Positions 9,954-25,690 of a DNA stretch of 30,103 nt are shown here, piece after piece. Every line of letters starts with the position of its first letter. Position 1 is the stretch's first letter. A program made the translations under genes and the position numbers. Location of the stretch: the IMG/VR virus record IMGVR_UViG_3300020442_003882, positions 1 to 30,103 of that record. The stretch is one strand, 5' to 3'. The stretch is from a virus. The notes below the pieces were generated by a model that was given only the letters and a program-made list of their open reading frames with translations, was not told the origin of the DNA and made no database searches.

Positions 9954-11198
9954 TTACAGCAAGTGAATGCGGAACGGTGAGCGGCGCAGAGCTGTGCTCT
10001 GATCTGTCGCCCATTGATCCTCAAGCGCTTGGCAAGTGACAGTCAGCCCGTGCAAGCCTTCGCTGTCGGAGCGCTGCACGTTCTGGATTTGAAGGTTGGG
10101 AATATCAAGCAGCGCAGTGCCGCCGGCGGTGTTGCCGATCTGAATGAACAGGCTCTTCTTGGTGCGTGCGTCGCGCTGCGTGAAGTATGAGATATCTTCA
10201 AAGGGGATCGTGAACTCTACGGTCAAGATCGGCTTCTGCGGGCGCAGCTTCATACGCCGGATCCCGTTGACGCCGCTCGGCGTGCTGATGGGCTCGAAGG
10301 TAATTTGCGGCGTGACCGTGATCGAGCTGCAATCGATCTCAGTGATGGCCGTGGCGCCTGCGCCGGCTGTGACGAATATGGCCGAGCTATCGACAAAGGG
10401 CACCGGATCACCGTCGGTGAGCGTGGCGCGTGCGATCGGGCTTCCGCTGATCGGGCTTGCGACCTCAGTGTCGTGGTAATAGTTGGCGCCAGCTAGGCCG
10501 AGCGTCATGCGCGCGAGCTGCGTCAGCGACAAGTCAAAGGCCATCGAGGTGCACTGATCGCCAGTCAGCCACCAGATATTATCACGATCGGCAGTCTCAA
10601 CCACGAACTGCAGAGACGTGTCAGGATCGTCAGTTAAAAAGAAGGTGTGTGAGTTGTAAACCGCGCTGCCGCCGGTGGGCGCTGCGCTGAACTGCACGCG
10701 CGGCGTGATGGCGTTGCCGACAATGCCCGCGATGCTGCGCGCCTCAAGGTTGCCGCCAACCAGTGCGCCGACCGCGCCGCCGGCCTCAAAGCGCGCGCCG
10801 CTTGTCGTGACGTCAAGTTGTGAGGTTGTGGACGTGCCCGCCTCAACGTCGCCCTGATCAGCGTCATATCCGCCAAGGATTGCCTTTAGCATAATCCCAA
10901 GCGCGTGATCGGTGTAGGCCGGAGTCACGCCAGCCGCCAACGCTGTGCCGGTGGGCATGAGGTCTGTTTCAAGGCTCAACTCATTTTGACGCCGGCTCAC
11001 GATGTCGAGGTTCTGCGCATAGGGCGTCTGGTTGACGTGCTCGTCTGGCAGAAGCTCGCGCGTGATCGTGGCCTCGGCGTTGCGGTATCGCACATCCTTG
11101 AAGTTGGCAATACTGGCGCTTAGCTCTTGGGCATACGTTGCAGATCCGGCCGCCTCTTCGATAACGCGCAAGCGCTCAACAATTAGTAATTCAGGCAT
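9954..11198 (-). CDS. Major tail (tube) protein
   Basis: This 414-residue protein is just upstream of the tail chaperones and tape measure, the usual place of the tube subunit. It is beta-rich and acidic, with an N-terminal helix/strand start (PELLIVERLRVIEEAAG) and a polymorphic alanine/glycine-rich middle. The region DNIWWLTGDQCTSMAFDLSL and the C-terminal stretch IQNVQRSDSEGLHGLTVTCQ are compatible with tube-type beta sandwiches. It is longer than lambda V, so an extra immunoglobulin-like or insertion domain is possible. The ATG is preceded by GGGAGTAAAAAAG. No contractile sheath gene is nearby, which supports a siphovirus tail. Confidence 0.8.
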   Translation of the reverse strand: MPELLIVERLRVIEEAAGSATYAQELSASIANFKDVRYRNAEATITRELLPDEHVNQTPYAQNLDIVSRRQNELSLETDLMPTGTALAAGVTPAYTDHALGIMLKAILGGYDADQGDVEAGTSTTSQLDVTTSGARFEAGGAVGALVGGNLEARSIAGIVGNAITPRVQFSAAPTGGSAVYNSHTFFLTDDPDTSLQFVVETADRDNIWWLTGDQCTSMAFDLSLTQLARMTLGLAGANYYHDTEVASPISGSPIARATLTDGDPVPFVDSSAIFVTAGAGATAITEIDCSSITVTPQITFEPISTPSGVNGIRRMKLRPQKPILTVEFTIPFEDISYFTQRDARTKKSLFIQIGNTAGGTALLDIPNLQIQNVQRSDSEGLHGLTVTCQALEDQWATDQSTALRRSPFRIHLL

Positions 11199-15948: not shown

Positions 15949-16185
15949 CTACGTTTGCTCGCTGCCGGGTATAAGCTGCGAAACGTCGGCGCCCAGCGCG
16001 GAAGCCAGCCGCACAACGGTGCGAATTGTTGGTTCATGATATCCAAGCTCGACCCGCCTGATCTCGTGCTCAGTGCAGAGCGCAGCGTCAGCCACCTGGC
16101 GAACGCTCAGCCCGCGGCTCTGCCGGTGGTCGCGCACCAGCCGCCCAATCTCCCGCGCGAGCGGTGACTTGGGCGCGCGCCTCAC
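15949..16185 (-). CDS. XRE-family helix-turn-helix regulator inside the head module
   Basis: This 78-residue protein is almost entirely one Cro/CI-type helix-turn-helix domain: EIGRLVRDHRQSRGLSVRQV, then ADAALCTEHEIRRVELGYHE, followed by VVRLASALGADVSQLIPG. It lacks an oligomerisation or protease domain, so it is a small DNA-binding regulator. The GTG start at 16185 overlaps the stop of the portal-MuF gene (GTGA), so it is made with the late structural genes. Its position between portal and protease is unusual. It might control late transcription or shut off early genes; targets are unknown. Confidence 0.8.
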   Translation of the reverse strand: MRRAPKSPLAREIGRLVRDHRQSRGLSVRQVADAALCTEHEIRRVELGYHEPTIRTVVRLASALGADVSQLIPGSEQT

Positions 16186-18527
16186 TGCTCAAGCCTCCCC
16201 GCCGGATCCGTCCATCCCTTGTCTCCGGTGTACGGCTTGCCGTCAATGATCACGGTGCTGGTTGTCAGCTCGCTGCTCAAGTTGCGCCGCTGAAATTGGC
16301 GCTCGCTAAGCGTGACCATCTGACACCGGCAATTGAACCCCAGCGGCGGCGCATACTGCGCGTGTAGCTCGCTGCCATTCATGAACACCTTGCGATCAAG
16401 GTGCCGATGCTCATCGCGCACGCGCCGATCGTTGGCCGTCTTATATTGTACATATGGACGGAGCCCGCGGATCTCTGGATCGGTCATCTGCTCAAAGCGG
16501 CCGGCGCCGTAGCTTGCCGCCAGGTTGGTGCGAACGATCGTCTCTGCATACCAGCTCTTTTCACCAAGCCCAAGCTGACGCTCCATCGCGATCGCCATCT
16601 CTGCGCCGGTTAGCTGCTTGTTCATGCCGTCAGCCAGGATCTGCCGGGCACGCTCAACCAGTCGCGTATTTGCCAAGCGGCGCGCTATGAAGCCGCCTTG
16701 CTTCCAGCGGCCGCGCATCGAGTCGAACGCCTCAACGCTTACAACCTGCTTACGCTCGAAGTATGCGATAGCTTCGTCAAACTTTGCCCGGAAGAAGCGC
16801 GCGATCGCATCGCCAACGTTGAGCTGCACAACGTCGCGCAAGTCTACAGTGCGATCCGCGCCAAGCTCGACACCGGCCACGCTCAGCCGGCCGCCCATCT
16901 CGCCGATGGCTAGCGTCTGCTCTGCGATCGTCTCGAACTCTTCGCGGCCCTCTGTGCGCAGCTCCTCGGCCCAATCGAATAGCGCTGTGCTTTGCCGCCA
17001 GTCGCCGGCCGGTAAGCCTTCAAGCTTGTCGCGCAAGCTCTTCATGGTGGCGCGCGCCCAGGGGTTGAGCCGCTCAGCCAGGCGCTCAACGGCCTCCTCC
17101 GGCGTGCCGATCATACTCCAATCCTGATCATCGAGCGCGATCATGTTAGCGGGTATAAACGGCTCCGACTGCTCAACGGGCGGCGCTGCAAGGATCGCGC
17201 TGTAGTCTATGCCGGCCGCCTCGGCTGACTGCTCCTCTTCGGCCTGCTCTTCGGTCTGCTGCTCTTCTGCGACCTGGTTGTTGAGCGCAGCGAAGCCGAG
17301 CGCCTCGCGCGTCTCGTTGATCGACACGATGCCGCCGAGAACGTGCCACTCTTGGACGTCTGCCGTCTCTGTCTGCACTAGGGTGAAATCCCAGATCGGC
17401 ACCGGGAGATCCGGGAAGTTGTAACGCGCGATCGGCTCAAGCAGATCACGGCGCAGCGTGTCGGCAAGCTCTGCCGCGTCTGCGGCAAGGTAATCGAGCC
17501 TAACGGCGTCATGAACTTTGGCCGCCGCGTAGCTCCCGCCCTGAACCTCTGTGCTCAGGTTCTGCCCAAGGATCGCAACGGCCATCTCAGTATTAGCAAG
17601 CTCAACCATGCGGCTGTGTAGCTCGCCGGTAAAATTGCCGGAGCCGGGCAACTGCTCAAGCTCCATCCCCTCAGTGATCACGGCCTGCCAGTCTTCATTT
17701 AGCCCGCGCAACATATCGGCCGCGTCGTCAAAAAGATTATCATCGCCATCAGGCACCTTGAGCACCGGCGCCGGCTGGCCGAAGCGCTCAGCGGCAACCA
17801 GCCACCATCGCAGCCCGTACCGCTTTGTCATAGACGGCCAGAGACACGGGCGGAGAGCGCCGCGCCGCGTGACGTAGCAGGCGCGCCCGCCGCTTGGGCT
17901 GTGGATTATGAACCGATCGGGGCCGAAGCTGGAGAGCGGCACGCCAGGCCATGCGTCTTCCACGTCACTGCGGTGGATCTGCATTTTGTCATCAAAAGCA
18001 AACCGGGACGGATCGCGCCAGTAAAGCTCGACCGGCAAACTCAGCCCCTCGCGGCGGCCCCACTCCATCTCGACCACGGAGTAGCCGCGGAGCGCGCCGT
18101 CCATGAGTTGGGCTATGAGCTGCGTGAGCGACGGCAGCAAAGAGAGCGCGCGCGTCATGCGCTCAACGGCCTCAAGCGCTGCCGGATCCTGCTCCAGCCC
18201 TGGCGGCGGGCGCAGCGTCCACTCTTTGCCAGTCAGCGCGAGCACGCGCGTGCGGCAGACGGCATCAAGGCGCGGATCGCGCTCTCTCATGTCGTCATAT
18301 AACGGCATGAGCCTGCTCATATTGCCCTGTTCAGACTCGATCAGAGTGCTGACCAGGTTTTGCACGTCGTTACCCTGGATAGGGTGCAGAAAGCCGTTGA
18401 CGCCATATTTAGGCAGGCTCATCACCGTGCCGCGTGGCGCAAGCCTGCGGCCCCGGTCTGCCTTTGGTGTCAGCGCCTCGAATCGGCGAACGCGCGCAGC
18501 CTGGCGCACTCCAGCAAAAATGCTCAT
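16182..18527 (-). CDS. Portal protein (DUF935/Mu gp29-like) fused to MuF-like head morphogenesis domain
   Basis: The 781-residue product combines two virion functions. The first 430 residues resemble Mu gp29 (DUF935) portals: MSRLMPLYDDMRERDPRLDA, LALTGKEWTLRPPPGLEQDP, GYSVVEMEWGRREG, and LANTEMAVAILGQNLSTEVQ. A glutamate-rich linker follows near residues 435-455. The C-terminal part (about 640-745) matches the MuF/SPP1 gp7 head morphogenesis domain: VRTNLAASYGAGRFEQM, RRVRDEHRHLDRKVF and APPLGFNCRC, with the His and Cys ligands of the family. In Mu the two are separate genes. The ATG follows TerL by two bases. The portal forms the DNA gate; MuF-type proteins enter the head and assist assembly or ejection. 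Confidence 0.9.
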   Translation of the reverse strand: MSIFAGVRQAARVRRFEALTPKADRGRRLAPRGTVMSLPKYGVNGFLHPIQGNDVQNLVSTLIESEQGNMSRLMPLYDDMRERDPRLDAVCRTRVLALTGKEWTLRPPPGLEQDPAALEAVERMTRALSLLPSLTQLIAQLMDGALRGYSVVEMEWGRREGLSLPVELYWRDPSRFAFDDKMQIHRSDVEDAWPGVPLSSFGPDRFIIHSPSGGRACYVTRRGALRPCLWPSMTKRYGLRWWLVAAERFGQPAPVLKVPDGDDNLFDDAADMLRGLNEDWQAVITEGMELEQLPGSGNFTGELHSRMVELANTEMAVAILGQNLSTEVQGGSYAAAKVHDAVRLDYLAADAAELADTLRRDLLEPIARYNFPDLPVPIWDFTLVQTETADVQEWHVLGGIVSINETREALGFAALNNQVAEEQQTEEQAEEEQSAEAAGIDYSAILAAPPVEQSEPFIPANMIALDDQDWSMIGTPEEAVERLAERLNPWARATMKSLRDKLEGLPAGDWRQSTALFDWAEELRTEGREEFETIAEQTLAIGEMGGRLSVAGVELGADRTVDLRDVVQLNVGDAIARFFRAKFDEAIAYFERKQVVSVEAFDSMRGRWKQGGFIARRLANTRLVERARQILADGMNKQLTGAEMAIAMERQLGLGEKSWYAETIVRTNLAASYGAGRFEQMTDPEIRGLRPYVQYKTANDRRVRDEHRHLDRKVFMNGSELHAQYAPPLGFNCRCQMVTLSERQFQRRNLSSELTTSTVIIDGKPYTGDKGWTDPAGRLEQ

Positions 18528-20840: not shown

Positions 20841-21604
20841 GACTCGTCACCTCCGAAGTTGAGCCCTCTTTGCTCTGCCGGCGCTTGCTCAGTCAGGCCA
20901 AGCAGCGGCGGCGTGATCGTTGTGCGCTCGATGCGCTTGACCGCCTTCTCAAACGTGGCCGGATCGATCTCCGAGCCAATAGCGCGGCGGCCTTCCATCG
21001 CGGCGGCGATCAGCGTCGTGGCTCCACCGGCGCACGGATCGCACACAAGATCGCCCGGCTTGGTGTAGTCGCGGATGATCTGCCTCATGAGCTGGATCGG
21101 CTTTGCCCCAGCTACGATCCCGGTTTTGTCAGTTTGGGAAAAGTAGGCGCCAGGCAAGCAACCCCAGCGCGAATATGCAACCGAGCGCGGGCGCGCTACG
21201 TAAAGGTAAACCGCCCAATTTGCCGGCCCGTCACCGATCAGCCTTGGGCGCTTTTGAATAACTGGCAACGGCGCAAAGGCATACTTGCCGCGCTCTGCCG
21301 CCGCTTTGTCGAAGGGCAAGAGCGCATAAGTATCATTGAACATGCAGATCCAGCCTCTAGAGCGCTGCATCCAAGCACCAGCAAATTGCTGAATTTGATC
21401 AGGCGTCATGCTGCCATAATTTACGTTTTGCCGCGTGACCTGCCCGGTGATCGCGTTGGTGCTGTCCGCCCCTGCATTGTGCCCGCTGTGCGTGCGCTCT
21501 GAGTATGGCGGATCCGTGATCACCGCGTCCGGCTCAACGTCTGCGAGCACCTCGCGCCAGTCGCCAAGCCGCAGCTCAATGCCGGCCTTGCGGTACACGC
21601 TCAC
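20837..21604 (-). CDS. Orphan DNA methyltransferase (adenine-N6 or cytosine-N4, beta class)
   Basis: The 255-residue protein carries motif IV DPPY at residues 31-34 (DAVITDPPYSE) before motif I (VCDPCAGGATTLIAA, about 187-201) and motif II GSEID at 210-214. This order defines the beta class of amino-methyltransferases. It uses S-adenosylmethionine to methylate adenine or cytosine amino groups. No restriction endonuclease lies nearby, so it is an orphan enzyme: phage DNA protection against host restriction is the likeliest role. The target sequence cannot be read from the protein. The GTG start overlaps the RusA stop (GTGA). Confidence 0.9.
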   Translation of the reverse strand: MSVYRKAGIELRLGDWREVLADVEPDAVITDPPYSERTHSGHNAGADSTNAITGQVTRQNVNYGSMTPDQIQQFAGAWMQRSRGWICMFNDTYALLPFDKAAAERGKYAFAPLPVIQKRPRLIGDGPANWAVYLYVARPRSVAYSRWGCLPGAYFSQTDKTGIVAGAKPIQLMRQIIRDYTKPGDLVCDPCAGGATTLIAAAMEGRRAIGSEIDPATFEKAVKRIERTTITPPLLGLTEQAPAEQRGLNFGGDES

Positions 21605-22074
21605 CGGATCACCTCGACGCGCATGGTAAACCGGCTCGGCTTGTCGGCGTGCGTCTTGGTGGCGTGCAGCTCATCGATCTGGTTGTCATCAAGCCACGCA
21701 ATCCCGTTGCAAGCGTCCAAGACGGCTTTGCACAAGTTATCCACATCACACCGGCGACGATCACCAAGACGGAAATCCAGCCGCACGCGAAAGCGCGTAT
21801 CGGGGCACTCGCTCGGCCAGTCCTGCCGCGCGGCCGTTTGTGCAGCGCAGAAAAGCGCAACTTGGCGCTTATAGATGCGCTGCGCCTTTGGCGTGATCCT
21901 GCGCCCGTTGTGGATCGCAGTGCGCGCCCAGCTAAGCGGCCGGCCCTGGTAGAAGAGCACCAGCGGCGCAATTGTTGCCCGCGTTGAGCCTGTGCCGCTC
22001 TCTGCTGGCGTTTCTGCCTGCTCCCGCTGTGCTCGCTCGTCTGCGGCGCTTGCGGCCTTCTCTGCGTCTCTCAT
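21601..22074 (-). CDS. rusA: RusA-family Holliday junction resolvase
   Basis: The 157-residue protein has the RusA pattern: RRRCDVDNLCKAVLDACNGI with Asp110, Asp112, Lys116 and Asp120, followed by AWLDDNQIDELHATK with the Asp129/Asp130 pair and Lys140. These acidic residues bind magnesium and cut four-way junctions. The N-terminal 30 residues are extra, polar and Ala/Glu-rich compared with the usual 120-residue RusA. It overlaps the replication gene by ATGA at 22071-22074. The role is to resolve branched DNA from replication and recombination before packaging, alongside ERF and SSB. Confidence 0.92.
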   Translation of the reverse strand: MRDAEKAASAADERAQREQAETPAESGTGSTRATIAPLVLFYQGRPLSWARTAIHNGRRITPKAQRIYKRQVALFCAAQTAARQDWPSECPDTRFRVRLDFRLGDRRRCDVDNLCKAVLDACNGIAWLDDNQIDELHATKTHADKPSRFTMRVEVIR

Positions 22075-23153
22075 GCTGTCACCGTCCGTTTGATCTGATC
22101 GATGATGCCGGCGACCGTCTGCGGATCCGGCACCTCTGCCGCCGCTGCGAATTGCTCATCATCGCGCTTCTTCTCGTCCAACCTTGCGCGCTCGGCCTGC
22201 GCTCTGCGCACGTAGCTGCGCCGATACCGGCCCGGCTCATTGAGGAAGAAGGGCAATATCCAGCCCTGATCTTTGGCCTGCTGGTCATGCTCAAAGCCGA
22301 TGAGCGCGCACCATATCGCCTCGTGTAGCCCGCACGGCTCGCCGCGTTGCTCTGCGATCTGTTGCGCCATGAGCCGAAACGCTGGCAGCGCCTTGTCATC
22401 GATCCGCTTGCGCTGGCTGCGGAGCGTCCACGTAAGGTGCACGCGGTTGGCCCAGGCGGCCGCCATCTCGGCAACTAGCTCTTCCGCAAACAACTCCCGC
22501 GCCCTCTCCGGCGGTATCAGCTCAGCGAAGCCGAGCGCCCGCGGATGCAGCCTCGGAAGCTCCGATCTTGAGTACAGTATGTATTCATTAATTGGTTTGG
22601 TGTTGGTGTTGGAGTTGGACCACGCGCGCGCCCGCGAGGCGTCATCCGTGACAGCCTGCGGAATCGCTAGGCTTCTCGGCCGTTGTGTGTGGTTTTGCGG
22701 CACGTCTCGTGCACTTTTCGTGCTCATCTCGTGCACTTTTCGTGCGCGTTTCGTGTCGGTGTTGGTGCACTTCTCGTGCACTTCTCGTGCACTTCTCGCG
22801 CGCTTCTCGGCACGTGATCGGCGCTTGCTCTCGGTGTTGGCCTCGCGCGCCGCGTCCCGCTGCGCCTGAGTCTGGTTGTAGCGGTGCCAGTTGACGAATT
22901 GCCAGCCGTCGCCGCTCGGCTCCCAAAGGCCGACCGCAACCAGGCGAGCCGCGATCTTGTCCACGTCTGCGCGCCTGCGCTTGCCTGACGTGTGCAAAGC
23001 CTCGGCCGCGCTGATCTGCCCGTCCGTACCAAAGCGCGCGCAGTAGGCGCCGCAGAGAGCCCAGAAGCCGAAGGCCGCCAAGCCGCCGCGCTCGCTGACC
23101 AAGCGCACGATCTTTGGGTGCTGCGCCGCGTCGTCAGAGACTCGAAACCACAT
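22071..23153 (-). CDS. Replisome organiser / replication initiator-like protein
   Basis: The start is ATG 23153, which overlaps the previous TGA by one base (TGATG); a longer upstream frame is shadow. The product is 360 residues. The N-terminus has the phage replication winged-helix pattern (MWFRVSDDAAQHPKIVRLV, then FGFWALCGAYCARF and WQFVNWHRYNQTQAQRD). A low-complexity basic linker, residues about 116-152, is encoded by 11-bp DNA repeats; then comes SNSNTNTKPINEY, a linker seen in several phage initiators. The C-terminus is helical (LTWTLRSQRKRIDDKALPAF). Such proteins bind the origin and load helicase, like lambda O or DnaD-type organisers. No helicase or loader gene is visible here. The embedded repeats support an initiator role. 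Confidence 0.75.
   Translation of the reverse strand: MWFRVSDDAAQHPKIVRLVSERGGLAAFGFWALCGAYCARFGTDGQISAAEALHTSGKRRRADVDKIAARLVAVGLWEPSGDGWQFVNWHRYNQTQAQRDAAREANTESKRRSRAEKRARSAREVHEKCTNTDTKRARKVHEMSTKSARDVPQNHTQRPRSLAIPQAVTDDASRARAWSNSNTNTKPINEYILYSRSELPRLHPRALGFAELIPPERARELFAEELVAEMAAAWANRVHLTWTLRSQRKRIDDKALPAFRLMAQQIAEQRGEPCGLHEAIWCALIGFEHDQQAKDQGWILPFFLNEPGRYRRSYVRRAQAERARLDEKKRDDEQFAAAAEVPDPQTVAGIIDQIKRTVTA
22568..22598. other. AT-rich patch inside the replication gene (possible unwinding element)
   Basis: This 31-base stretch is about 74% A+T (23 of 31) in a genome near 60% GC. It encodes the NEYIL part of the initiator linker. It lies about 100 bases downstream, in gene direction, of the 11-bp repeat array, a layout like the lambda origin. 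Unwinding activity is inferred. Confidence 0.45.
22698..22808. repeat. Array of ten 11-bp iterons in the replication gene (candidate origin)
   Basis: Reading the plus strand, consecutive 11-bp units run CGGCACGTCTC, GTGCACTTTTC, GTGCTCATCTC, GTGCACTTTTC, GTGCGCGTTTC, then a 12-bp divergent unit, then GTGCACTTCTC three times exactly and GCGCGCTTCTC. Five units match GTGCACTTYTC. The array is bracketed by two CGGCACGT copies (22698 and 22808). Eleven is not a multiple of three, so the unit repeats in different codon frames; selection therefore acts on DNA, not protein. The period is close to one helical turn, placing sites on one face. It is a candidate origin bound by the encoded initiator. 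Confidence 0.7.
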
Positions 23154-23485
23154 CAGGCAAGATCCCAGGTTTGAGCGTTGCCAGGGTTCACCGAGCACTT
23201 GCGCACCGGCCCGCTGATAAGCTGGCCATCACGCCGCAAGTCGGGAAGCCGGCGGCATACCATGTGATAGGCTCTCGCGGCCCTCATGCCCTGCCAAGCC
23301 TCGCGCATGATGATCCGCTCCGTCAGCTCTGCCGCCGTCTTGCCCGGCCAGCGCTCAACGGCCTCAAGGACGATCTGTTTTTGCGTGCGGTTGCTGCCGC
23401 CTCTGACGTGTCGCGCGGCGCTCTGCCGGCTGCTCGCTGGATCGTCGCTGCGGTATAGGTGGCTGAAATCAATTTCTGTTTGCAT
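23153..23485 (-). CDS. Winged-helix DNA-binding protein
   Basis: The 110-residue protein has a disordered N-terminus of about 30 residues, then a winged-helix pattern: RTQKQIVLEAVERWPGKTAA, ELTERIIM, YHMVCRRLPDLRRDGQLISG and a final strand ending NAQTWDLA. Similar proteins occur beside replication genes in many phages and bind DNA. The ATG has AAGGAGCACAGGAC upstream. It overlaps the Cro-like gene by 17 bases and the replication gene by one base. A role in replication control or transcription is inferred. Confidence 0.75.
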   Translation of the reverse strand: MQTEIDFSHLYRSDDPASSRQSAARHVRGGSNRTQKQIVLEAVERWPGKTAAELTERIIMREAWQGMRAARAYHMVCRRLPDLRRDGQLISGPVRKCSVNPGNAQTWDLA

Positions 23486-23821: not shown

Positions 23822-24133
23822 ATGGACTTTCGCTATCTAGTGCTCTGGTTTGTGAATGACGCTGCGATCCCGCGCGTTGTGGATGGTCGCGTTTTCTTCA
23901 GCCCTGAAGAAGTCGCGGCGTGTTTGCTCGATGCGGTTGACGCGCACGATCCAGAGAAGCCGCGCACGGCGCAAGTGTGGCAAGTCGATCCGATCGGCGA
24001 GATCCACGCGGTGCCCGCAGACGCGCTTGATCGGTGGGTTGAGCATACGCACTTGCCGCCGACCATCTACGATCCGGCGGCCTGGTCTGCCTTCTCTCGC
24101 CTTTGCGACTGGCTGCGAGCTGACGCCCGATGA
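23822..24133 (+). CDS. First gene of recombination operon, hypothetical
   Basis: The 103-residue protein begins MDFRYLVLWFVNDAAIPRVV and continues SPEEVAACLLDAVDAHDPEK, with a tryptophan-rich C-terminus (AWSAFSRLCDWLRAD). I do not recognise the family. An ATG at 23812 is not in the same frame; the ATG at 23822 lies where transcription is predicted to begin, so translation may be leaderless. The stop overlaps the ERF start (ATGA). Lying immediately behind the operator-controlled promoter, it is likely an early gene. Confidence 0.7.
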   Translation: MDFRYLVLWFVNDAAIPRVVDGRVFFSPEEVAACLLDAVDAHDPEKPRTAQVWQVDPIGEIHAVPADALDRWVEHTHLPPTIYDPAAWSAFSRLCDWLRADAR

Positions 24134-24936
24134 GCGCCGCAGACGCAGAGCACGCGCGCCGCCTGGCGCTTGACCTCGACAACGCGCGGCGCGCAGTGCG
24201 CCGCCTAGAATCCGCTCACGCGGATCTAACTGGAGACACAATGCACGAAGACACAAACAGAGACACAAACAAACCGATCAACCTGCCCGGCGGCGTCACG
24301 CTCTCGCACCTCTGCGCGCCGGAGCTGTTCACCGCGCTTGCAAAAATGCAAGGCGCCACGCGCGACGTTTACGCGGCGAGCCACAATCCGCACTTTGGCA
24401 GCTCCTACGCGAAGCTGGTTGATATCCTGCAAGCCAACCGAGCCCAAGCGGCGGCGGCTGGCGTGTCCTATCTCGGCCTGCCTGCTGGCCCTGGTCACAC
24501 TGTGCACGTGATCGGGCACGCCTCTGGCCAGTGGATCAGTTTTGTCACAGAGTATCACTTGGCCAAGACTGGCCCGCAGCAATGCGGCAGCGCGAACACC
24601 TACGCGCGGCGCCAGGGCTTCAGCGCGGCGCTCAATTGTGCACCGACTGACATTGAGCAAGACGACGACGGCGAGAGCGCGCGCGTTGCGCATGAAGAAG
24701 CTGAGCGAGCAGAGATCGAAGCCAAGCACGGTAATTGGGTTAAAGGCGCGATCGAGTGGCTGGCCGATGTCGAGCGCGCGCCCGATGAAGTGATCGCGAG
24801 CCTCGACGGCGGCAAGCTCGGCGTTGGCATCATGCGCGCAATAAAGCTCAGCCTTGATCTTGGCCAGATCATCGAAGGTGTGCGGCACGTTGGCGATGAG
24901 CGCGCGGCGGCGTGGCTTGACGGGCGCGGCCTGTGA
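24130..24936 (+). CDS. erf: ERF-family single-strand annealing protein
   Basis: The frame gives 268 residues. The ERF core starts near residue 58: PELFTALAKMQGATRDVYAA, NPHFGSSYAKLVDILQANR (86-104), VHVIGHASGQWISFVTEY, then GPQQCGSANTYARR (148-161) and DIEQDDDGES. These match the family pattern of N-P-x-F-x-S-x-Y-A and QxxGSxxTYARR followed by an acidic stretch. ERF proteins anneal complementary single strands and promote recombination and genome circularisation. A second ATG at 24241 (residue 38) has a good GGAG site nine bases upstream, so a shorter form starting there is plausible; the long form is coupled to the upstream gene by ATGA. Confidence 0.9.
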   Translation: MSAADAEHARRLALDLDNARRAVRRLESAHADLTGDTMHEDTNRDTNKPINLPGGVTLSHLCAPELFTALAKMQGATRDVYAASHNPHFGSSYAKLVDILQANRAQAAAAGVSYLGLPAGPGHTVHVIGHASGQWISFVTEYHLAKTGPQQCGSANTYARRQGFSAALNCAPTDIEQDDDGESARVAHEEAERAEIEAKHGNWVKGAIEWLADVERAPDEVIASLDGGKLGVGIMRAIKLSLDLGQIIEGVRHVGDERAAAWLDGRGL

Positions 24937-25136
24937 GAGCGTCGGGGCGATCGTTTATCATGCGCGCAAACGGCGAGCGCGTGCGCGTGACTGTGACACA
25001 ATACCGAACGCCGGCCGGGATCGCGGTGCGCTACGTGGCGGCCGATCCTCGCACCGGCGAGAAGTTGATCAGCGGTGACACGCTGAAAAGTAATCAAGAC
25101 GTAATACAAACCATCAAAAGGAGACTCAACCAATGA
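24933..25136 (+). CDS. Small hypothetical protein between ERF and Gp157-like
   Basis: A GTG at 24933 overlaps the ERF stop (GTGA), giving 67 residues; an ATG at 24960 (MRANGERVRVTVTQYRTPAG) is an alternative start. The product is basic and beta-rich then helical (TLKSNQDVIQTIKRRLNQ). No family recognised. Its 3' end carries AAAGGAG, the ribosome binding site for the next gene, and overlaps it by ATGA. Confidence 0.6.
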   Translation: MRASGRSFIMRANGERVRVTVTQYRTPAGIAVRYVAADPRTGEKLISGDTLKSNQDVIQTIKRRLNQ

Positions 25137-25690
25137 AAACGCTTACACACAAAGGCGCGGTGTACCCGAGCACAGTGCGCGCGGCCGTCAGGCTTGGCGC
25201 GGAACTTGGCCGCGAAACCTACGATCCCGAAACTGGAGAGATAGACGAAGAGCGCGACGCGCTGCGCTTTGAAGCGCTGCAAAACCTCGAAGCCGGGATC
25301 GAAGTGCTTGCGGCTCGGATCCAGCGATACGAGACAAACGCGAAGATCTGCAAAGAGGTTGCAGCCGATTACCGCTCGCGCGCTGACTCGTGGAAGCGGC
25401 AAGCCGATGGCCTGCGCTCACTGGTTGGCGAGGTGCTCGCCATCGCAAACAAGACCAAGGTCAAGACTGCCCTTGTGACCGTCAGCGTGCGCGAGAGCGC
25501 CGGCGCGCTTGTCATCGAAGACGACGCGCAGATCCCGGCGGAGTATATCCGCACAGTGGAGAGCCCAGACAAAAGCGCGATCAAGGCGCACCTCAAAGCA
25601 GGCGGCACGCTCGACGGCTGCCGCATCGAGACAAAACAGAGCGTGAGCCTGCGCGTTGCAGGCGGGAAGAGGGCCGAAGATGTACATTGA
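25133..25690 (+). CDS. Siphovirus Gp157-like protein
   Basis: The 185-residue protein has the Gp157 plan: a long N-terminal helical region (EALQNLEAGIEVLAARIQRY, then KICKEVAADYRSRADSWKRQ), then KVKTALVTVSVRESAGALVI, IPAEYIRTVESPDKSAIKAH and LKAGGTLDGCRIETK. The family is widespread in siphophages, usually beside recombination genes, and has been linked to phage resistance in Streptococcus thermophilus phage work. The exact function is not known. AAAGGAG lies upstream of the ATG. Overlap by ATGA with the upstream gene and 11 bases with SSB places it in the recombination operon. Confidence 0.85.
   Translation: MKTLTHKGAVYPSTVRAAVRLGAELGRETYDPETGEIDEERDALRFEALQNLEAGIEVLAARIQRYETNAKICKEVAADYRSRADSWKRQADGLRSLVGEVLAIANKTKVKTALVTVSVRESAGALVIEDDAQIPAEYIRTVESPDKSAIKAHLKAGGTLDGCRIETKQSVSLRVAGGKRAEDVH

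Follow-up and report, generated by a model that had tools for sequence, protein, structure and literature searches.

We asked whether an array of 11-bp direct repeats lying within a replication gene of a phage belongs to the replication origin of that phage. The repeats were found in a stretch of 30,103 nucleotides of viral DNA, hereafter the window, and an original prediction had read them as a helically phased iteron array with a nearby AT-rich patch, comparable to the origin inside gene O of lambda. The features discussed below are collected in Table 1.

Table 1. Features of the initiator gene and of the putative origin in the window.
Feature	Position	Strand	Basis or remarks
RusA-like Holliday junction resolvase	21601..22074	(-)	Next gene downstream of the initiator
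Replication initiation protein gene	22071..23198	(-)	375 aa as listed
Helical C-terminal domain, coding region	22071..22511	(-)	Predicted helices, moderate confidence (AlphaFold2)
Predicted disordered linker, coding region	22512..22697	(-)	AlphaFold2 pLDDT <50, residues 153-214 (counted from Met16)
AT-rich patch, proposed DNA unwinding element	22568..22598		74% A+T
Imperfect hairpin, TGAGTACA-GTA-TGTATTCA	22569..22587		Fold; 8-bp stem with one G-T, 3-nt loop
Short-unit array, hexamer type, putative	22592..22618	(-)	CCAACT CCAACA CCAACA CCAAA CCAA (coding strand); period 6, 4.7 copies
Spacer, iterons to short-unit array	22619..22698	(-)	
Iteron array	22699..22809	(-)	Nine 11-bp units and one 12-bp unit; position and phasing shared by relatives
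N-terminal winged-helix DNA-binding domain, predicted	22809..23153	(-)	64-sequence alignment, AlphaFold2, fold matches

The repeats themselves proved to be real. All ten predicted units were found, with coordinates that had been right within one base, and they run from 22809 down to 22699 with the coding-strand consensus CGARAAGTGCA. Three consecutive units are exact copies of CGAGAAGTGCA and two of CGAAAAGTGCA. Tandem Repeats Finder reported a period of 11 with 10.4 copies at 22700-22813, and the identity at lag 11 was 0.70, against 0.18-0.37 at lags that are neither multiples of 11 nor neighbours of 33. The lag-11 score (50) was the maximum over lags 5-60 in the whole 30,103-base record. By comparison, the maximum reached in 2000 synonymous shuffles of the initiator gene was 32, and that in 300 first-order Markov simulations was 16. 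When only the linker of the window was shuffled synonymously, none of 1000 shuffles reached the observed score, which agrees with the earlier argument that selection on the protein does not explain an 11-bp period. The initiator gene thus contains phased direct repeats that are not explained by its protein sequence.

The gene product matched the profile phrog_2447, 'replication initiation protein', with an E value of 9.8e-29 over residues 16-186, which correspond to the N-terminal domain, placing the array inside a replication gene as predicted. The real start codon is probably not the one listed but Met16 at 23153, since homologs begin at M-W-F in the alignment. Homologs of the N-terminal domain were present in more than 200 phage records, with identities of 26-39% among the matches listed, and the hosts of these phages include Gordonia, Mycobacterium, Streptomyces, Microbacterium, Arthrobacter and Propionibacterium. 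In an alignment of 64 sequences, this domain was the conserved part of the family. AlphaFold2 predicted it with a pLDDT of 96.2 as helices with a beta-hairpin wing. Residues 115-152, where a long helix ends and the linker begins, are encoded by the iterons. Fold comparison identified a generic winged helix with plasmid initiators among the tied matches: 5kbj (Z 7.7, 82 aligned, rmsd 2.9) and 4pql (Z 7.8, 79 aligned, rmsd 2.6), both tied with unrelated winged helices, and also 4pt7 and 4pta, all of which we take to be RepA_N proteins (initiator structures). A profile search of solved structures gave no initiator among its matches, a Pfam search at E 1e-3 assigned the initiator to no family, and a PHROG search with the C-terminal domain returned no match. 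Beside the initiator gene of the window we recognised neither a helicase gene nor a loader gene; in several relatives the gene downstream of the initiator encodes a DnaB-like helicase or a helicase loader.

Some observations were made in passing on the annotation of these genes and on other genes of the window. Initiator homologs are annotated, probably wrongly, as 'mucin-2' and 'tail assembly chaperone protein' in the Streptomyces phages Raleigh and Darolandstone and in the Mycobacterium phage RitVan. On an 86-kb plasmid of Saccharopolyspora pogona (locus L292, NZ_CP031143.1, a circular record), an initiator homolog adjoins genes for an exonuclease and RecT, and the record is possibly a plasmid-like prophage. 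In the window, a single ORF of 781 aa (16182-18527, minus strand) carries Mu-type portal and Mu F-like head morphogenesis domains, which are separate genes in the phages matched. A Mu Gam-like end-protection protein (25133-25690, plus strand) is encoded near an Erf-like annealing protein (24130-24936, plus strand). These two genes accompany the Mu-type head module, and none of the proteins scanned was recognised as a Mu transposase.

The original prediction had proposed aligning homologous phages to see whether the repeats are kept while codons change. No close relative of the window was found by its initiator (in viral contigs and genomes), by RusA or by DNA comparison with phages, and therefore only the architecture, and not the exact unit, was compared across phages. 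The sole weak match, locus L026, was ruled out as a relative of the window, as it was an unrelated capsid-like region. Homologous loci were gathered by scanning viral and genome contigs with subfamily alignments, used as seeds because a 24-row family alignment was too diverse, and by adding 23 annotated phage loci. This gave 282 loci, 216 of them non-redundant, which had been picked by the initiator gene alone and not by partition systems. The length of the reading frame was bimodal: the gene was long, with 550 bp or more, in 167 loci and short, with 280-450 bp, in 40. The region past the domain is translated in the long genes, and the same region is untranslated in the short ones.

In 158 of the 216 loci, direct repeats of a period not divisible by three were centred 300 to 600 bp from the start codon; the remaining 58 homologs had no such repeat at the threshold used. 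In each of the other 300-bp windows between -2400 and +2400, the same kind of repeat occurred in 2-9 of about 184-216 loci (about 2%). The loci are related and hence not independent draws, but the contrast lies within each locus: among long genes it was 123/167 at +300 to +600 against 60/2412 for the other windows summed, and among short genes, where the repeats are non-coding, 28/40 against 7/542. Because the excess holds in both coding and non-coding contexts, it is the DNA itself that is conserved. Consistent with this, the repeat score of the linker was not matched by any of 100 synonymous shuffles in 96 of 162 long genes, and that of the domain-coding part of the same genes in only 5 of 162. 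The repeat is therefore kept as DNA.

These results bear on the possibility that a repetitive basic or proline-rich linker is what has been selected, the DNA repeat being a by-product of slippage and duplication. The region does encode a low-complexity linker, predicted to be largely disordered, which would tolerate tandem duplications. However, a period of 11 shifts the frame at each unit, synonymous shuffles do not reproduce the repeat, the untranslated position still bears repeats in the short genes counted above, and the pentamer arrays described below were found in all three frames. We regard this explanation as largely refuted and very improbable. The 216 loci, 40 of them with the region untranslated, clearly indicate conservation at the DNA level.

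What is shared among the loci is the spacing. Repeat lags were counted over the 130 bp ahead of the pentamer array in 120 loci. A lag of 11 was observed in 14 loci, where 0.3 were expected from control regions. Lags of 12 (14 observed, 2.0 expected), 22 (8, 0.3), 23 (11, 0.4), 24 (8, 0.9), 33 (7, 1.0) and 34 (4, 0.3) were also in excess. The repeat units vary by phage (for example GTTCGGGCGAAC, GTCACGCGTGAC and GTAACGCCGTTAC), and the spacings cluster at 11-12, 22-24 and 33-34 bp. The remark that the period is close to a helical turn therefore extends to the family as a whole, in which the spacing is helically phased. That the spacing is kept and the unit sequence is not would be expected if the initiators differ in their binding sites and share an assembly geometry. 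The 11-bp array of the window is one instance of the spacing rule of the family.

The repeats are followed by a second, shorter array. Arrays of pentamers, mostly CCCGA, CCCGT, CCCAT, CCCTT and CCCCT, were present in 131 of the 216 loci with a median start at +423. At least four CCC runs with loops of 1-3 nt occurred at +300 to +600 in 120 of the 216 loci, against a background of about 1.7 per 216, and the excess was confined to the coding strand. In short-gene loci of the mycobacteriophage type, ACGG/ACGT tetramers take the place of the pentamers, and some loci have hexamers. The median total length of the array was 26, 26.5 and 26 bp for periods of 4, 5 and 6, an agreement that is suggestive only, as the score threshold imposes a lower bound on length. 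Apart from these counts, we noted that many of the short-gene loci L007, L012 and L259-L285 share a block resembling CTCACCTT ... GTAACGCGCG past the ACGT/ACGG tetramers, at about +400 to +520. The spacer between iterons and short-unit array is short or absent in most pentamer-type relatives and about 140 bp in LOCV2/Jebeks. We propose, weakly if it is taken alone, that the hexamer array of the window is the counterpart of the CCCNN/ACNN arrays of about 26 bp in its relatives. Arrays of period 6 also scored in 116 of 1476 control windows, and this class was therefore dropped as independent evidence.

A universal G-quadruplex reading of the short-unit array was considered and rejected. At least four GGG runs on one strand, the template strand, are present in 120 of the 216 relatives, but tetramer-type arrays and the window have no GGG runs, the array of the window having GG runs only.

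Next to this array lies the AT-rich patch, which had been correctly described and begins about 100 bp downstream of the iterons in the direction of the gene. The only other 31-bp stretch in the window that is as AT-rich lies near 11176. Among relatives, the fraction of A+T increases from about 0.25 to 0.58 right past the pentamer array. In 44 of 120 loci, a hairpin scoring at least 7 for its stem started within 25 bp past the pentamer array, compared with 3/120 and 3/120 at two control offsets; the hairpin of the window scores below the threshold of this count. The hairpins of the relatives have long perfect stems and loops of 3-4 nt, mostly TAAA, TGAC or TAAC, and lie inside coding sequence. 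The order of elements in the window is that of its relatives, namely iterons, short-unit array and AT patch with hairpin; the elements of the window that follow its iterons are plausible counterparts, each weak by itself. Since period-6 arrays are common by chance, the hexamer array and the hairpin of the window rest mainly on this order and position.

Other markers of origins were less informative. A switch in GC skew, which the original prediction had suggested looking for, was not seen at the array and lends it no support. Only a small local minimum was present at about 24.5 kb, near a change in gene direction, and we rejected skew as an origin marker here as it tracks gene direction. The DnaA box nearest to the array in the window is at 21737. 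In a minority of loci, DnaA boxes were slightly enriched close to the putative origin and rarer elsewhere in the same loci. DnaA-box-like TTRTCCACA sequences were noted near the putative origin in L007 (+586), L012 (+621), L073 (+469), L227 (+494), L232 (+472), L242 (+446) and L260 (+599).

The position of the array and the elements that accompany it bear on two further explanations. The repeats might be an operator through which the winged-helix protein represses or otherwise regulates its own transcript. The predicted domain resembles those of transcription factors, and array and gene go closely together, but the array lies in the middle of the gene or just past a short gene and not upstream of a promoter, it is followed in relatives by the short-unit array, AT-rich patch and hairpin, and the protein, annotated as a replication initiator, is often encoded ahead of helicase genes. 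An operator is thus improbable in our estimation. Less probable still, and with hardly any weight in our judgement, is a centromere-like partition site, as found in some extrachromosomal mycobacteriophage prophages. Such sites can be similar in form, the parS loci of RedRock being made up of an 8-bp motif in eight direct copies (PMC7157519). However, none of the window proteins scanned was recognised as a partition protein, and loci that had been chosen for the initiator gene alone have the array behind the initiator domain.

Taken together, the array is very probably the initiator-binding part (iterons) of the replication origin of this phage, embedded in the gene of its own initiator. An in-gene iteron origin, in a distinct and mostly actinobacteriophage family, is the best-supported reading of the mechanism. 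We infer the steps that follow, from binding through melting to helicase loading, as well as the part that the short-unit array plays in them. On one face of the DNA, the N-terminal winged-helix domain would bind the 11-bp units, which are in helical phase. Assembly of the initiator would strain and open the AT-rich patch, and the short-unit array and the hairpin by the patch may help to keep one strand open and to position helicase or primase. The helical C-terminal domain, whose function is proposed, would recruit the host replicative helicase or primase. As the origin would code for no more of the protein than a tolerant linker, the DNA is free to be selected as DNA. The arrangement is a clean natural experiment, in which one sequence is shared by DNA signals and a protein linker. 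To our knowledge, replication origins have been mapped for few phages of actinobacteria. A positional rule, by which iterons and next a short-unit array are expected at about 300-600 bp from the initiator start codon in either coding or non-coding DNA, predicts the origin of considerably more than a hundred phages and prophages.

The closest known arrangements differ from this one in several respects. In lambda O, iterons lie in the middle of the initiator gene and are followed by an AT-rich region, and the initiator binds the iterons (PMC7466680). The window likewise has iterons in mid-gene and an AT-rich region, but its unit is 11 bp in about 10 copies, whereas lambda has four iterons and the Stx phages compared have six (PMC7466680). 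Unlike in lambdoid origins, the AT patch is about 100 bp away rather than adjacent, the next gene encodes RusA and not a P-like loader (in some relatives it encodes a helicase or a loader), and relatives carry an array of 4-6-bp units and often a hairpin. The Pfam search at E 1e-3 gave no match to the lambda O family. In the pSK41 rep gene, an N-terminal winged helix binds boxes central in its own gene, the segment encoded by the origin is a dispensable linker, and the C-terminal domain of Rep contacts primase (PMC5703833). The window resembles this system in its winged-helix N-terminal domain (here predicted), its centrally placed putative binding sites and the linker encoded by its putative origin. 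pSK41 has four Rep boxes, and the family of the window belongs mostly to phages and prophages of high-GC actinobacteria. No RepA_N domain was detected in the initiator by Pfam. The likeness to lambda O and RepA_N would accordingly be one of mode of working, membership in either family being unsupported by sequence.

Initiators that bind direct repeats inside their own genes are also described, in the parts of the sources available to us, for SPP1 (gp38 and gene 38, with an AT-rich unwinding element at oriL; PMC6316719) and for the lactococcal phages TP901-1 (ORF13) and Tuc2009 (Rep2009) (PMC8965321); phased 11-12-bp spacing and a short-unit array are not among the features described in those parts. 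The original view of an in-gene origin like that of lambda is thus supported by the comparison, and its wording as an independent version with a much shorter unit has to be changed, because the 11-12-bp spacing is a family rule and in-gene origins are known outside lambda.

For the short-unit array, the nearest parallel is the DnaA-trio of bacterial oriC, a short tandem repeat that separates the double-strand binding sites from the unwinding region (PMC10797057). This likeness is an analogy only; the trio has a 3-nt unit, the arrays of this family have units of 4, 5 or 6 nt, and, unlike in bacterial oriC, only a minority of the loci have a nearby DnaA box. It is possible, if rather doubtful, that the array of about 26 nt, built of ACNN, CCCNN or CCAACN units and placed between iterons and AT patch or hairpin, represents an unrecognised class of origin element: a DnaA-trio-like, strand-specific loading track for the initiator or a helicase loader, whose total length is fixed and whose unit size differs by lineage. 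The window would then be an example of the hexamer type. In a literature search that took in few subscription papers, we found no published description of such an arrangement in actinobacteriophages. An origin inside the gene of its initiator is of a kind already known. What appears to be new, within the papers searched, is an architecture, family-wide and mostly in actinobacterial phages, of phased 11-12-bp iterons, a short-unit array of about 26 bp and an AT patch or hairpin, whose place is fixed whether or not the DNA is translated.
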